From positions 1-57,044 of the forward strand of contig PAJP01000013.1 of the NCBI GenBank assembly GCA_002706095.1: a stretch of 57,044 bases of DNA, in the 5' to 3' direction. Positions within the stretch are counted from its first letter, which is position 1; each line of letters opens with the position of its first letter. Of the stretch, positions 19,319 through 24,972 are shown piece after piece. Source of the DNA: Methylophaga sp. (GTDB lineage Bacteria; Pseudomonadota; Gammaproteobacteria; Nitrosococcales; Methylophagaceae). Made by a program: the position numbers and the translations under genes. The notes beneath the pieces were generated by a model that was not told the origin of the DNA, did not search any database, and saw only the letters and a program-made list of their open reading frames with translations.

Positions 19319-20113
19319 ATGAGCCGTATTAGTCTTAAACATCTGCGTCAAATGAAAACGGCGCAAGAAAAAATTGCTGTACTCACTGCGTATGATGCGA
19401 GCTTTAGTTACGCACTTGAGCAAGCCGGTGTGGATGTTCTACTAGTAGGTGATTCTTTGGGAATGGTTATCCAGGGACAAGAGAGTACAGTTCCTGTAAG
19501 TGTTGACGATATGATTTATCACACGGCTAATGTGATCCGCGGTAGTGATAAGTTATTTGTCATCGCTGATATGCCGTTTATGAGTTATGCCAACACTGAA
19601 CAAGCTATCAAAAACGCTGCTCGCCTGATGGCTGAAGGCGGCGCTCAAATGGTCAAACTGGAAGGTGGCGCCGTCATCACCGATACAGTTAAACAGCTAA
19701 CTGCACGTGGCATACCCGTATGTGGACATTTAGGGTTATTACCTCAGTCAGTTCATCGGTTAGGTGGTTACATCGTGCAGGGTCGTGAAACACAGGCCGC
19801 AGAAGAATTGATTGCCGATGCCATCAGTCTGCAAGAAGCTGGTGCAGATATGCTGGTATTGGAATGCGTACCGGCAACCTTAGGAGCCGTCGTATCCAAA
19901 CAGTTGGATATTCCTGTGATAGGTATTGGTGCTGGTAGCGACTGTGATGGGCAGGTGTTGGTGGTGTATGACATGTTGGGCTTAACGCCTGGCCGAAGAC
20001 CACGCTTCAGTCACGACTTTTTAGCGGATACCGGCTCAATACAAGCCGCTCTGACAAACTATGTACAATCGGTGAAATCAGGTGCATTTCCTAATGCGGA
20101 GCAGCAGTTCTAA
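19319..20113 (+). CDS. panB: 3-methyl-2-oxobutanoate hydroxymethyltransferase PanB
   Basis: PanB makes ketopantoate from alpha-ketoisovalerate and methylene-tetrahydrofolate. The 264-residue protein has TAYDASF near 22, GDSLGMV near 44, KLEGG near 114 and the catalytic Glu region VLECVP near 180. It is the first of three pantothenate genes in a row and shares its last base with the panC start (TAATG). Confidence 0.97.
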   Translation: MSRISLKHLRQMKTAQEKIAVLTAYDASFSYALEQAGVDVLLVGDSLGMVIQGQESTVPVSVDDMIYHTANVIRGSDKLFVIADMPFMSYANTEQAIKNAARLMAEGGAQMVKLEGGAVITDTVKQLTARGIPVCGHLGLLPQSVHRLGGYIVQGRETQAAEELIADAISLQEAGADMLVLECVPATLGAVVSKQLDIPVIGIGAGSDCDGQVLVVYDMLGLTPGRRPRFSHDFLADTGSIQAALTNYVQSVKSGAFPNAEQQF

Positions 20114-20967
20114 TGGCGATAGCAGAAAACTTGGGAGCATTACGAACCCGCATCAAAAGTTGGCGTCAACAGAATGAAGTGATTGCATTTGTACCGACAA
20201 TGGGCAACCTGCATGAAGGTCATCTCTCTTTAGTACAAAAAGCGCGTGAGCTGGCGGATCGCGTTGTCGTCAGCATTTTTGTGAATCCGCTGCAGTTCAA
20301 TGATAAACAGGATCTTTCTGATTATCCCCGAACATTGAATGAAGATATCCAGTTATTGAGTGAACTCGATTGTGAGCTGATTTTTACGCCGACTGAGGAA
20401 ATGATTTATCCGAATGGTATGGCATCGTTAACCAAAGTCATTGTTCCTGGTGTCGATGATAAGCTCTGCGGCAAAGGTCGCCCTGGCCACTTTGATGGCG
20501 TCGCTACCGTTGTAACAAAACTATTCAATATGGTGCAGCCTGATATTGCCATTTTTGGTGAGAAAGATTATCAGCAATTAATGTTAATCAAGAAACTGGT
20601 GGCAGACTTAAATTTGTCGGTAGATGTGATTGGCGTGCCAACAAAGAGGCATGAGAGTGGGCTGGCCATGAGTTCCAGAAACAGCTTATTGAACCAAAAA
20701 CAATTAGTTCAAGCGCCGTTGATCTATAAAACACTGCTGTCAATGAAGCAAGCTATTGAAGAAGATGGCCTTACTGACTTCCATCAACTTTGTGCGACGG
20801 CGAAAGAAGAGTTACAAAAAGCGGGACTGGAACCTGAGTATGTCGATATTCGTCGCGCAAATGATCTGGAACTGGCTAATGCCAATGACAAACACATTCG
20901 TATTTTTGTGGCTGCAAGGCTGGGAAGCGTAAGATTAATAGATAATATTGCCTGTGACCTTGCCTGA
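20113..20967 (+). CDS. panC: Pantothenate synthetase PanC
   Basis: PanC condenses pantoate and beta-alanine with ATP. The 284-residue protein has the HIGH-like PTMGNLHEGHLSLV near 29-42, FVNPLQF, GEKDYQQL near 148 and the MSSRN motif near 184. It follows panB with a one-base overlap. Confidence 0.97.
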   Translation: MAIAENLGALRTRIKSWRQQNEVIAFVPTMGNLHEGHLSLVQKARELADRVVVSIFVNPLQFNDKQDLSDYPRTLNEDIQLLSELDCELIFTPTEEMIYPNGMASLTKVIVPGVDDKLCGKGRPGHFDGVATVVTKLFNMVQPDIAIFGEKDYQQLMLIKKLVADLNLSVDVIGVPTKRHESGLAMSSRNSLLNQKQLVQAPLIYKTLLSMKQAIEEDGLTDFHQLCATAKEELQKAGLEPEYVDIRRANDLELANANDKHIRIFVAARLGSVRLIDNIACDLA

Positions 20968-21018
20968 TATTTGTTAAAAAGCGATAATATTGGGCTATTT
21001 CATAAGAACATTCTGGCT

Positions 21019-21399
21019 ATGCAACTGACCTTTTTAAAAGCAAAATTACATCGTGCTTGTGTGACTCATTCCGAGTTGGAGTATGAAGGCTCGTGTGCAA
21101 TTGACGGTAAGTTACTGGAAGCCGCTGGTATTCATGAATATGAGCAAATCCAGATTTACAATGTCGCCAACGGCGAACGTTTTACTACCTACGCTATTCG
21201 CGCAGAAGATGGTTCAAATATCATTTCGGTCAATGGTGCAGCTGCCCATAAAGCTTCCCCAGGCGATCGTTTAATTATTTGTGCATTCGCAACACTTGAT
21301 GCCAAAGAAGTCGAAAACTTTAAGCCAACACTGGTGTATCTCGACGAAAAAAACGATATCACACACATGCGTCACGCTATTCCTGTTCAAGCTGCATAA
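21019..21399 (+). CDS. panD: Aspartate 1-decarboxylase PanD
   Basis: PanD makes beta-alanine from aspartate. It is made as a proenzyme and cleaves itself between Gly24 and Ser25 (YEGS), turning Ser25 into the pyruvoyl cofactor. The 126-residue length fits the family. The frame is open from a TTG at 20971, but the ATG at 21019 gives the family N-terminus [13 protein letters not shown], so I use it. The ribosome site is weak. It completes a panBCD set. Confidence 0.95.
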
Positions 21400-21420
21400 A
21401 AAGAAACGAGTACTAAATCA

Positions 21421-21933
21421 ATGGAAAGATTGTTTGAAAAAGCGCTCTGGAATAGTCGTTTTGTTGTACTCATAGCCGTTATCGCCAGCCTGGTTACCGC
21501 ATTAGCCATGTTTTATATGGCAACGGTTGATGTCTATTATTTACTTTCTCATCTTGGCGAATACATGTCACCTGATTTGATTGGTGATGCCAGAAAGGAT
21601 TTTCGTGCTGAAACCGTGGCACACGTCGTTGAGGTGATTGATGGCTATTTGCTGGCGACCGTACTGTTTATCTTCTCTCTTGGCTTGTATGAGCTGTTTA
21701 TCAGTAAAATCGAAGAAGCAGAAGAGAGTGAGAACTCGAAAGTATTAGCTATTCACAGTTTGGATGATCTAAAAGCACGTTTAGGCCGTGTTGTTTTGAT
21801 GATTCTGATTGTTAACTTTTTCGAACATGCCATTAGCATGGACTTTCACGGTCCGCTTGATTTGCTGGCGCTTGCTGGTGGTATTGGCCTTATCGCACTG
21901 GCTTTATACTTCTCCCACGCTGACGACCACTAA
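21421..21933 (+). CDS. yqhA: UPF0114 family membrane protein YqhA
   Basis: The 170-residue inner-membrane protein has four likely helices (about 13-35, 70-92, 115-135 and 143-162). It matches the UPF0114/YqhA family by its N-terminal LFEKALWNSRF, the central EVIDGYLLA and the LKARLGRV segment. The function of the family is not established. It lies 21 bp after panD and may be cotranscribed. Confidence 0.8.
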   Translation: MERLFEKALWNSRFVVLIAVIASLVTALAMFYMATVDVYYLLSHLGEYMSPDLIGDARKDFRAETVAHVVEVIDGYLLATVLFIFSLGLYELFISKIEEAEESENSKVLAIHSLDDLKARLGRVVLMILIVNFFEHAISMDFHGPLDLLALAGGIGLIALALYFSHADDH

Positions 21934-21934
21934 T

Positions 21935-21989
21935 CGTCACAAAAACGTCATTAAAACGTTATAAGGCTGTCATATCTTCTCTCTATGCT
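21935..21989 (+). promoter_or_regulatory. Pho box (four 11-bp PhoB half-sites) and promoter of the ornithine-lipid gene
   Basis: Cores CGTCA, CGTCA, CGTTA and TGTCA begin at 21935, 21946, 21957 and 21968, exactly 11 bp apart, each followed by AT-rich bases. That is the PhoB direct-repeat pattern (TGTCA-N6). The last half-site takes the place of a -35. TATGCT at 21984-21989 begins 16 bp after it, the same distance as in E. coli phoA. Inference: olsF is induced by phosphate starvation. Confidence 0.75.
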
Positions 21990-22016
21990 TGCAAGCTGTC
22001 TGCAAGCATAGAGAGA
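21978..22016 (+). promoter_or_regulatory. Perfect 16-bp inverted repeat before olsF
   Basis: Arms 21978-21993 and 22001-22016 are exact reverse complements around a 7-bp centre. The left arm covers the predicted -10; the right arm covers the likely ribosome site (GAGAGA at 22011-22016), 4 bp before the ATG. If transcription starts upstream, the mRNA hairpin would hide the ribosome site. If it starts at the Pho promoter, only the right arm is transcribed, and the palindrome would act as a DNA operator. Confidence 0.7.
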
Positions 22017-22020
22017 AAAC

Positions 22021-23739
22021 ATGCTCAATATCGAACAAGCCGTTCAACAAAAATTTCCTAAATTCGAACGCTCCCGTCCTTGGATAAAAAAATCGACGAT
22101 TAGCTTTCTGCGTAAAATTACACACGAGCAGGAAGTGAATCGATTCCTTGAGTTGCATCAGGATTTAAAAGGCTTCGATTTTATTGAGCAGGTGCTGGAT
22201 TATTTCAATTTCAGTTACAGCATTAGCCACCGTGATCGCAATAATATTCCGGCAACAGGACGGGTGGTCATTGTTGCTAATCATCCACTGGGTGCGCTGG
22301 ATGGTTTGTCATTATTAAAATTGGTTGGTGAAGTCCGCCGTGATGTCAAAATCGTCGCAAACGATATGTTAATGAATTTTAACGCGGTCGACTCTTTGTT
22401 CTTACCTGTCGATAATTTATCGAAATCCACACGCAAAAGTAGTATTTCTCGCATTATTGATTCTCTGAATAATGAAGAAGCAGTGATTGTTTTCCCGGCG
22501 GGTGAAGTATCGCGCATTCGTCCTAGTGGTGTACGCGATGGTAAATGGAATACCGGTTTTCTGAATTTTGCCAAGAAAACCAACTCACCTATTCTGCCTA
22601 TCTATGTCGGTGCCAGAAACTCTTCCTTGTTCTACAGTGCATCCATGGTCTATAAACCACTTTCTGGCATGATGTTGGCGCATGAGATGTTTAATAAAAA
22701 CTCAAAGAACATCACCATGCGTGTTGGCGAACCTATTCCTTATAAACAAGTTGACCAACTGCCATTGGTGAAAGCAGAAAAGGCTAAACTATTACGCCGC
22801 CACCTCTATCGGATGGCAAAAGGTAAAAAACCGTTATTTGTTACAGAGCAAACTATAGCTCACCCACAGGACCGTCGTAATATTAAACGTGAGTTGCAAT
22901 TGGCGGAGTTATTAGGCCAGACAGCAGATAATAAAAAGATCTATTTATTTGACTATCAACCTGATTCAGCTGTGATGCATGAAGTCGGCCGTTTACGTGA
23001 GTTTACGTTTAGGCAGGTCGGAGAGGGGACAGGGAAAAGGCGCGATATCGATCGTTATGATCGTGATTATCGTCATCTGATCTTATGGGATGAAAACGAA
23101 TTAGAAATTGCTGGCGCTTATCGGATCGGTGAAGTGAATAACATACTGTCACAACCTGGCAGTCGTGGAATTTATAGTCAGGAGTTATTTTCTTACGATC
23201 CGGATGCGATGCAACCCTATTTTGAAAAGGGTATTGAGCTAGGCAGAAGCTTTGTCAGCCCGAAATATTGGGGCCGACGCAGTCTGGATTATTTATGGTA
23301 TGGCATAGGCGCTTATCTGAAACGATACCCTGATATCCGCTATCTATTTGGGCCTGTTAGTTTATCAAACAGTTATCCTGATTTCGCTAAGGCGTTAATC
23401 GTTGGTTATTATCAACACTATTTTCCAGATGATAAACACTTAGCAATAGCGAAAAATCCATATATTGCTGAGCGAAGTCTGCAACAACAAGTGTTGCAAA
23501 CCTATTGTGGCACCGATGCCGAGGCTGATTTTACTGCCATGCGTGAGCAGTTAACGCATATGAATGTGACTGTGCCTACCTTATATAAACAATATGCCGA
23601 TGTCTGTGAAGAGGGTGGTGTTCGGTTCATCGACTTCAATATCGACGCTGATTTTGGTCATTGTATTGACGGTCTGGTGATGGTCGATTTGGATAAATTA
23701 AAACCGGCTAAGAGAAAACGTTATCTGGGTGATGATTAA
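22021..23739 (+). CDS. olsF: Bifunctional ornithine-lipid synthase, OlsF type (acyltransferase plus GNAT-like N-acyltransferase)
   Basis: The 572-residue protein has a PlsC-like acyltransferase domain (about 60-275) with the NHPLGALDG motif near 87 and FPAGEVSR near 160. A second half (about 300-560) resembles OlsB/hemolysin-type N-acyltransferases, with SQELFSYD and GRSFVSPKYWGRRSLDYLW. That order is the one of OlsF, which N-acylates ornithine with the C-terminal and O-acylates with the N-terminal domain, giving a phosphorus-free membrane lipid. The Pho box upstream supports this role. Specificity for ornithine is inferred. Confidence 0.8.
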   Translation: MLNIEQAVQQKFPKFERSRPWIKKSTISFLRKITHEQEVNRFLELHQDLKGFDFIEQVLDYFNFSYSISHRDRNNIPATGRVVIVANHPLGALDGLSLLKLVGEVRRDVKIVANDMLMNFNAVDSLFLPVDNLSKSTRKSSISRIIDSLNNEEAVIVFPAGEVSRIRPSGVRDGKWNTGFLNFAKKTNSPILPIYVGARNSSLFYSASMVYKPLSGMMLAHEMFNKNSKNITMRVGEPIPYKQVDQLPLVKAEKAKLLRRHLYRMAKGKKPLFVTEQTIAHPQDRRNIKRELQLAELLGQTADNKKIYLFDYQPDSAVMHEVGRLREFTFRQVGEGTGKRRDIDRYDRDYRHLILWDENELEIAGAYRIGEVNNILSQPGSRGIYSQELFSYDPDAMQPYFEKGIELGRSFVSPKYWGRRSLDYLWYGIGAYLKRYPDIRYLFGPVSLSNSYPDFAKALIVGYYQHYFPDDKHLAIAKNPYIAERSLQQQVLQTYCGTDAEADFTAMREQLTHMNVTVPTLYKQYADVCEEGGVRFIDFNIDADFGHCIDGLVMVDLDKLKPAKRKRYLGDD

Positions 23740-24194
23740 CCGTGACAACGTTTTAGTTTTTTGCCACTGCCGCAGAAACAGGGATCATTTCTGCCCAGTT
23801 TGACGGCTGGCAGAATAATGCCATCATGATAGAACCATTCACCACTTTCGCAGGTAAAACGTGAGCGTTCGTGGAGTTGACCTATCGGGTTGTTCTCATA
23901 AAACGCAACAAACTCCACTTCGGCCAGTTCATTTTTTTGTTGGTGATCCAAAATACGTAATCCCAACCATTTTGTTGTGTTAACCGTATTTTGCAATAAC
24001 TTTCGTTCATCTAATCGACGTTTCGATGGATGCAGTGTCGCGATTAAATAGTCTATCTCACCCAAATAAAATGCACTGTAACGCGAGCGCATCAGTTGCC
24101 CAGCATTTTCTGCACGTTGTTGTTTTTTATGAAGCGGCTCGCAACATTCGACGTAAGTAAGCTGGCTGAGACAGGGACATAAGTGATTATTCAT
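23736..24194 (-). CDS. ychJ: YchJ family protein with two SEC-C-type zinc motifs
   Basis: The 152-residue protein has an N-terminal CPCLSQLTYVECC motif, the YchJ core with LMRSRYSAF near 36, and a C-terminal SEC-C motif GRNDPCFCGSGKKLKRCHG. SEC-C motifs bind zinc, and in SecA bind SecB; the cellular role of YchJ is unknown. I use the ATG at 24194, inside the end of the upstream gene; a GTG two codons earlier is possible. Its stop overlaps the olsF stop by 4 bp on the other strand. Confidence 0.88.
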   Translation of the reverse strand: MNNHLCPCLSQLTYVECCEPLHKKQQRAENAGQLMRSRYSAFYLGEIDYLIATLHPSKRRLDERKLLQNTVNTTKWLGLRILDHQQKNELAEVEFVAFYENNPIGQLHERSRFTCESGEWFYHDGIILPAVKLGRNDPCFCGSGKKLKRCHG

Positions 24195-24972
24195 AAGCAC
24201 TAGCGGGAATAGACATTAAATCTGGATACTGAAACTGATAGGACAGTAATGTTTTCACTTTATCGTTGCTGACGATTTTATAGGAAGCTGCATTATCCTG
24301 ATTAAAGTCTGGTACAGGCTGATTCATTAGCTCAGCTGCATGGCGGTAAAATTGTTTTTTGCTTGGATGTGTGTCTGCACAGCCATTAAGTACCTCTCCC
24401 CAGACGTGTTGCTCCAATAGCTGTTCAATGATGCCGATGCAATCATCAAGGTGAATTAAATTTACCGGGGCATCCGCCTGTTTTACTTGCTTGCCATTTC
24501 TGAAAAAACGGCCTGGATGACGTTGTGGGCCTATCAAGCCACTGAAGCGAATAATGCTAGTGGAAAACTCCGAAGACTGCCTAAACAGGGATTCTATTTG
24601 CCACAGAATACTCTCTTCGTTTTCATATTGACGTTCTTCTCTAACCCAGTCATTGGTATTTTGGTAAACAGAACTGGAGCTGATAAATAACACCTGTTTA
24701 ATCGGGCTTTGTTCAATCTGTTTGATCAGCTGCTCATATGCCATTTTATTTTTATTGGTGATATTGATAATTAATGTGTCAGCGTCCAGAAACTGACTAA
24801 AGTCAGCTGGTGTTTCAATATCGATTTGGTAGGCATCAAAGCCTTGTTTAACCAATAAAGACTGTTTTTCTGAGTCACGTGTCGAGAGTTTAATCTCGGT
24901 ATTAGCTCTCTGTAACTGTCTTGCTAAGCGTAAGCCTAACCAACCACTACCAAGAATACTGATGGTATTAAT
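24187..24972 (-). CDS. NAD(P)-binding SDR/epimerase family protein, apparent ATT start
   Basis: Extended SDR-like protein of about 261 residues related to YeeZ. The Rossmann motif ILGSGWLG is near residues 6-13, followed by FISSSSVY near 96 and IIRFSGLIGP near 142. From the first usual start (TTG at 24855) the motif would be lost. The frame is open back to a TAG at 24984-24982, with no ATG, GTG or TTG before the motif. ATT at 24972 lies five bases after GAGGT and gives MNTISILGSGWLG. Function beyond nucleotide binding is unknown. The start overlaps no other gene. Confidence 0.78.
   Translation of the reverse strand: MNTISILGSGWLGLRLARQLQRANTEIKLSTRDSEKQSLLVKQGFDAYQIDIETPADFSQFLDADTLIINITNKNKMAYEQLIKQIEQSPIKQVLFISSSSVYQNTNDWVREERQYENEESILWQIESLFRQSSEFSTSIIRFSGLIGPQRHPGRFFRNGKQVKQADAPVNLIHLDDCIGIIEQLLEQHVWGEVLNGCADTHPSKKQFYRHAAELMNQPVPDFNQDNAASYKIVSNDKVKTLLSYQFQYPDLMSIPASAYE

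Follow-up and report, generated by a model that had tools for sequence, protein, structure and literature searches.

The window analysed here is a 57,044-nt stretch of Methylophaga DNA that carries, on its forward strand, a gene for the bifunctional ornithine lipid synthase OlsF (22021–23739; 572 amino acids). Its product matches NF052615 over its full length at 899.5 bits, against a cut-off of 620, and contains acyltransferase and GNAT domains (PF19576 and PF13444, both above their cut-offs), which bears out a first-pass annotation of the locus that had taken the gene for olsF from the letters alone. The nearest named OlsF relatives, at 97%, are those of M. sulfidovorans and M. aminisulfidivorans. 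Farther along, on the reverse strand, an open frame of 222 amino acids (24187–24855) is without a Pfam match at E 0.001. Ahead of olsF and in the same direction lie panB, panC, panD and a UPF0114 (YqhA-like) gene (19319–21933, forward strand); panB and panD were identified by family match, and panC by its place and sequence. Some relatives likewise have the UPF0114 gene (21421–21933 in the window) between panD and olsF; in others it has no match, and panD is the nearest pan gene. One genome of the family holds two OlsF genes (G035:C38, L010, and G035:C12, L111), each after its own pan genes, which may reflect a mixed assembly or a duplication. No terminator-like site was seen from 21856 to 22021, a span that takes in the whole gap from the UPF0114 gene to olsF. 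Within the UPF0114 coding region there are two weak ones (21774 and 21839), which could lessen read-through from the pan genes into olsF; over the 4-kb stretch, six such sites were counted on both strands, compared with 3.7 expected.

The UPF0114 stop codon ends 2 bp ahead of a Pho box (21936–21972, forward strand) made of four cores: GTCA at 21936–21939 and 21947–21950, GTTA at 21958–21961 and GTCA at 21969–21972. Re-reading the positions confirmed a spacing of exactly 11, 11 and 11 bp, as first described. The distance from the last core to the −10 element TATGCT (21984–21989, forward strand) had been given as 16 bp, a small counting slip: the gap measures 11 bp, and 15 bp separate the start of the core from the start of the hexamer. 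PhoB-activated promoters have tandem GTCA-type cores in 11-bp steps, and the −10 element follows the last of them at about 11 bp; the region upstream of olsF has this geometry. Four GTYA cores at 11-bp steps occur once in the window, counting both strands, and in none of 200 first-order-Markov windows of equal length.

We then compared this region across the family. A search of 57 genomes gave 37 OlsF places above the cut-off, in 36 genomes, from which we kept 34 distinct upstreams; we dropped G006, whose contig starts 10 nt ahead of the gene, G022, whose last 100 nt are those of G014, and G427, from the same species, in which the 90 nt before the gene are identical to those of the window. For each upstream we took the best-scoring four-core match no more than 150 nt from the olsF start, ignoring the −10 in the choice. 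A TANNNT hexamer nevertheless stood 11 bp after this match in 30 of 30 distinct upstreams and in all four fetched later (34/34). Core scores ranged from 31, the value in the window, down to 22, the box being weaker in some rows.

The regulator is present as well. The first-pass annotation had made its reading hang on a PhoB in the genome, and one was found at 325.8 bits (cut-off 296.2), with a PhoR-like kinase gene and transporter genes, named by eye, after it. The genome also encodes a PstS-like protein (126.6 bits to PF12849), whose gene has a four-core box of its own (L115:6626, score 28). Given the OlsF match, the PhoB, the PstS-like gene with its own box and the family-wide conservation of the olsF box, a Pho promoter for the OlsF gene is well supported, and it would probably be bound by PhoB. 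In one relative (L113, G031:C42), same-strand phoB-phoR-like genes, named by eye, lie upstream of olsF; an olsF gene so placed would link the lipid gene genetically to its presumed regulator.

Control of this kind is known from Vibrio cholerae, for which the primary paper on PhoB-dependent olsF is said to be that of Barbosa in 2018. Excerpts of two accounts state that V. cholerae olsF (VC0489) is induced in low phosphate through PhoB and that its product makes a phosphorus-free ornithine lipid (PMC12186959, PMC13157583), and an excerpt of a third describes predicted Pho boxes before olsB homologues in Burkholderia sensu lato (PMC7814305). The Methylophaga gene resembles VC0489 in being an OlsF gene with predicted PhoB control. 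As PhoB-dependent OlsF has been published for V. cholerae, the phosphate-sparing switch proposed in the first-pass annotation is not new, and a Pho box before olsF, taken alone, adds one more genus under a known control. That annotation was right to place a Pho promoter before OlsF, but in seeing a plain promoter only it overlooked a hairpin that spans the −10 and the ribosome site. The excerpts on V. cholerae mention no promoter hairpin, whereas the one in Methylophaga joins these two elements.

In the predicted fold, a 5′ arm that holds the −10 element (21977–21993) pairs with a 3′ arm that holds the ribosome site (22001–22017), giving a 17-bp stem with a 7-nt loop, both on the forward strand. 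The transcription start predicted from the −10, seven nucleotides after its end, falls at 21996, within the loop (21994–22000). All seven bases of the weak Shine–Dalgarno-like AGAGAGA (22010–22016), 4 nt before the ATG, are paired in this predicted hairpin. The 131-nt fold that contains the hairpin has a z-score of −6.5, and none of 200 shuffles was equally stable. When the same geometry of −10 and ribosome site was scored at 60 gene starts, namely those of the window and of the phoB-pst stretch, olsF had the strongest pairing (−29.8 kcal/mol; next strongest, −12.8). The arrangement recurs in the family: in 33 of 34 olsF genes the predicted start is within an apical loop or at its edge, and at least four of the seven ribosome-site bases are paired in 29 of the 30 rows in which the upstream gene is co-directional. 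A message begun at that predicted start, downstream of the arm that holds the −10, would be free of the 5′ arm.

The letters of the hairpin vary among relatives, and a stem is predicted in the same place in most of them. To compare the arms without an alignment, we paired each 5′ arm either with the 3′ arm of its own species or with that of another, using 17 cluster representatives of 30 rows. Own arms summed to −258.2, compared with −143.9 ± 12.8 for permuted arms, of which the lowest reached −208.7; none of 100,000 permutations was as low, although the 17 clusters are related to each other rather than independent. Measures on the 30-row co-directional alignment were divided. The covariation score was 0.279, compared with 0.157 ± 0.016 after shuffling and at most 0.185 after sliding (fixed columns); 65.1% of cells paired, compared with 55.9 ± 1.4%; and 67 cells had changed on both sides, compared with 35.5 ± 4.6. 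By contrast, the two measures described as least misled by relatedness showed no excess over shuffles: 10 pairs had both sides changed, compared with 10.1, and there were 38 further pair types, compared with 36.4. RNAalifold predicted no common pair in the same alignment; our reading is that the register of the helix shifts between clades in a way that a sequence alignment does not follow. Comparison of sense with antisense stability was equivocal, with P values of 0.12 and 0.08 for the 30 rows and 0.02 and 0.03 for 16 representatives.

One alternative explanation is that olsF has a plain Pho promoter over which an inverted repeat, devoid of RNA function, has been kept by template-switch repair, common descent or a chance overlap of constraints. 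Palindrome correction can transfer changes from one arm to the other, and the −10 region and the ribosome site hold fairly constant, mutually complementary letters, CTCTA and AGAGA respectively. The two of five covariation measures that lack an excess, together with the RNAalifold null, also fit such a repeat. It accounts poorly for the swap test, which demands species-specific matching beyond these common letters, and for the frequent wobble variants at certain pairs; at columns 14–43, for instance, 8 of 29 rows have UG. We consider this explanation unlikely.

A second alternative is that the repeat is a DNA operator, bound over the −10 by a second, dimeric regulator. The repeat is symmetric and does overlap the −10, but its arm letters vary widely between species while the pairing is kept, which is unlike the site of one conserved protein. 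Moreover, a covariance model of the hairpin, searched against its own genome, matched no gene start other than olsF among the 150 of 1,399 candidates that were scored, and the operator reading seems to us highly improbable. Besides the olsF site itself, hit on both strands, the search returned a single match (E = 2e-4); it runs antisense within a long open frame, and we put it down to chance.

To gauge what the hairpin might do to translation, we computed how much energy it takes to open the 18 nt that end with the start codon, either on a transcript running in from upstream or on one begun 7 nt after the −10. For the olsF of the window, the predicted cost was 20.2 kcal/mol on the long transcript and 4.6 kcal/mol on the short one, the ribosome site being predicted to be paired on the first and freed on the second. 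The extra cost on the long transcript ranged from 2.4 to 28.1 kcal/mol (median 9.2) in all 30 olsF genes whose upstream neighbour is co-directional, whereas it was −0.1 to 1.0 kcal/mol in all four that follow an opposite-strand gene, a class defined by the nearest upstream gene-sized frame lying on the other strand. Likewise, the arms paired at P < 0.05 in 25 of the 30 co-directional cases (5 missed) and in none of the four opposite-strand cases. Genes of the pan operon, ending about 85 to 320 nt upstream if the short frames in some gaps are not counted, precede 29 of the 30 co-directional olsF genes. The smallest extra cost of the 30 (2.4 kcal/mol) belongs to L035, where the upstream genes are phoBR-like (named by eye); a small cost is what would be expected there if the upstream operon were itself induced by starvation.

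The four opposite-strand cases have three different neighbours, and one of them (L038) still has pan genes farther upstream. All four fall in a single clade (support 91/84), and this natural experiment thus amounts to one event on the tree. Their ribosome sites are still paired at 5, 4, 5 and 5 of 7 bases in the minimum-energy fold, and are cheaply opened. That pairing is weak in this clade although the box and the −10 remain argues further against a plain promoter with an idle repeat.

As a control, we examined pstS promoters of the same family (29 distinct promoters among 30 loci, taken from about 47 places listed). None of the 29 paired with its ribosome-site region at P < 0.05, and three paired with the next 28 nt at that threshold. 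The extra opening cost, computed after leaving out four rows that have no GGGAG site, had a median of 1.1 kcal/mol and a maximum of 6.8. Because 7 of these 26 values exceed 2.4 kcal/mol, what sets the olsF values apart is their median and upper range, not their lower tail.

Outside Methylophagaceae, we applied a looser two-core rule to 30 OlsF upstreams, a set without L063, L064, L066 and L069 (start not fixed), L070 and L071 (no upstream) and L094–L101 (weaker class matches). Four of the 30 paired at P < 0.05 (L080, L082, L084 and L091). The strongest, L080, appears to be divergent from its methionyl-tRNA-synthetase-like neighbour (named by eye), and a strong hairpin of similar kind behind an apparently divergent gene would suit a third alternative, in which the hairpin, instead of countering read-through from the pan genes, works on a longer olsF transcript made from a different promoter or serves as a thermosensor or RNase site. 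So would L149, of the same family as L080, which folds strongly (−24.0 for 63 nt) with P = 0.32 in the fixed-arm test. Yet none of the four other OlsF genes above the cut-off in the L080 family reached P < 0.05 (for one of them, L150, the automatic −10 pick is probably wrong), and within Methylophagaceae the hairpin tracks the co-directional upstream gene. We consider a role of this other kind unlikely, and we extend no claim about the hairpin beyond Methylophagaceae.

We favour as the probable explanation that the −10 doubles as a hairpin arm and that a switch like that of T4 lysozyme silences read-through from panBCD. What the computation shows is the Pho box, the −10 at its fixed distance, arms matched within species and a difference in the predicted opening of the ribosome site. 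Under phosphate starvation, PhoB, presumably bound at the box, would draw polymerase to the olsF promoter, and the RNA would begin in the hairpin loop, at or near the position set by the −10. This message would have a leader of about 25 nt with the 3′ arm only, leaving the ribosome site free, and OlsF would be made. RNA running in from panBCD-UPF0114, if read-through occurs, would contain both arms and, once folded, conceal the ribosome site, so that it would be poorly translated. OlsF would thus be produced only when PhoB fires the promoter, even though a housekeeping operon lies close upstream and no terminator was seen between the two.

The design itself is known from phage T4, in which the leaders of soc and 49 are grouped with those of e and I-TevI. 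Excerpts of two papers describe it: longer transcripts of gene e form a structure, with lysozyme synthesis down 100-fold, whereas the late promoters directly ahead of the gene give transcripts without the 5′ part (PMC3014915), and the I-TevI leader has a similar design (PMC2988022). As in these genes, a promoter just before the ribosome site of Methylophaga olsF would remove the 5′ strand of a translation-blocking hairpin. The T4 examples use phage late promoters and their repression has been measured, whereas the Methylophaga case is a bacterial gene with a Pho promoter, conserved in a family and placed behind a housekeeping operon, and its repression is predicted. Insertion sequences offer another parallel, since fold-back in IS10 and IS50 hides the transposase ribosome site on run-in transcripts. 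The olsF ribosome site would likewise be hidden on run-in RNA, but IS10 and IS50 guard against any insertion site and olsF against a fixed chromosomal neighbour. What appears to be new is the fusion of promoter and hairpin; judged by titles and abstracts, our searches of an open-access collection turned up no earlier account of promoter-in-hairpin insulation in chromosomes, which is weak evidence of novelty.

On balance, we lean somewhat towards a broader view, in which one stretch of DNA serves a chromosomal gene both as its promoter and as an insulator of translation. The −10 region would act as the anti-Shine–Dalgarno arm, with arms that co-vary, translation would come only from transcripts of that promoter, and the device would be kept after a co-directional operon and be weak in one clade that has none. 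Our confidence is held down by the two covariation measures without excess and by the paired ribosome sites in the four exceptions. Stress genes can follow housekeeping operons with no intervening terminator. If the proposal is true, a stress promoter can be kept tight by making run-in RNA untranslatable, for which the promoter's own letters suffice. A conserved chromosomal case also offers a simple test, namely which RNA isoform is translated, and it yields a search rule: seek out −10 elements that are complementary to the ribosome site that follows them. Two distant gammaproteobacteria have olsF −10 regions complementary to the ribosome site, with TATGCTTCC matching GGAGGCATA in one (L080, G409:C6) and CTCTATC matching GATAGAG in the other (L084, G105:C5), and these are possibly independent cases.
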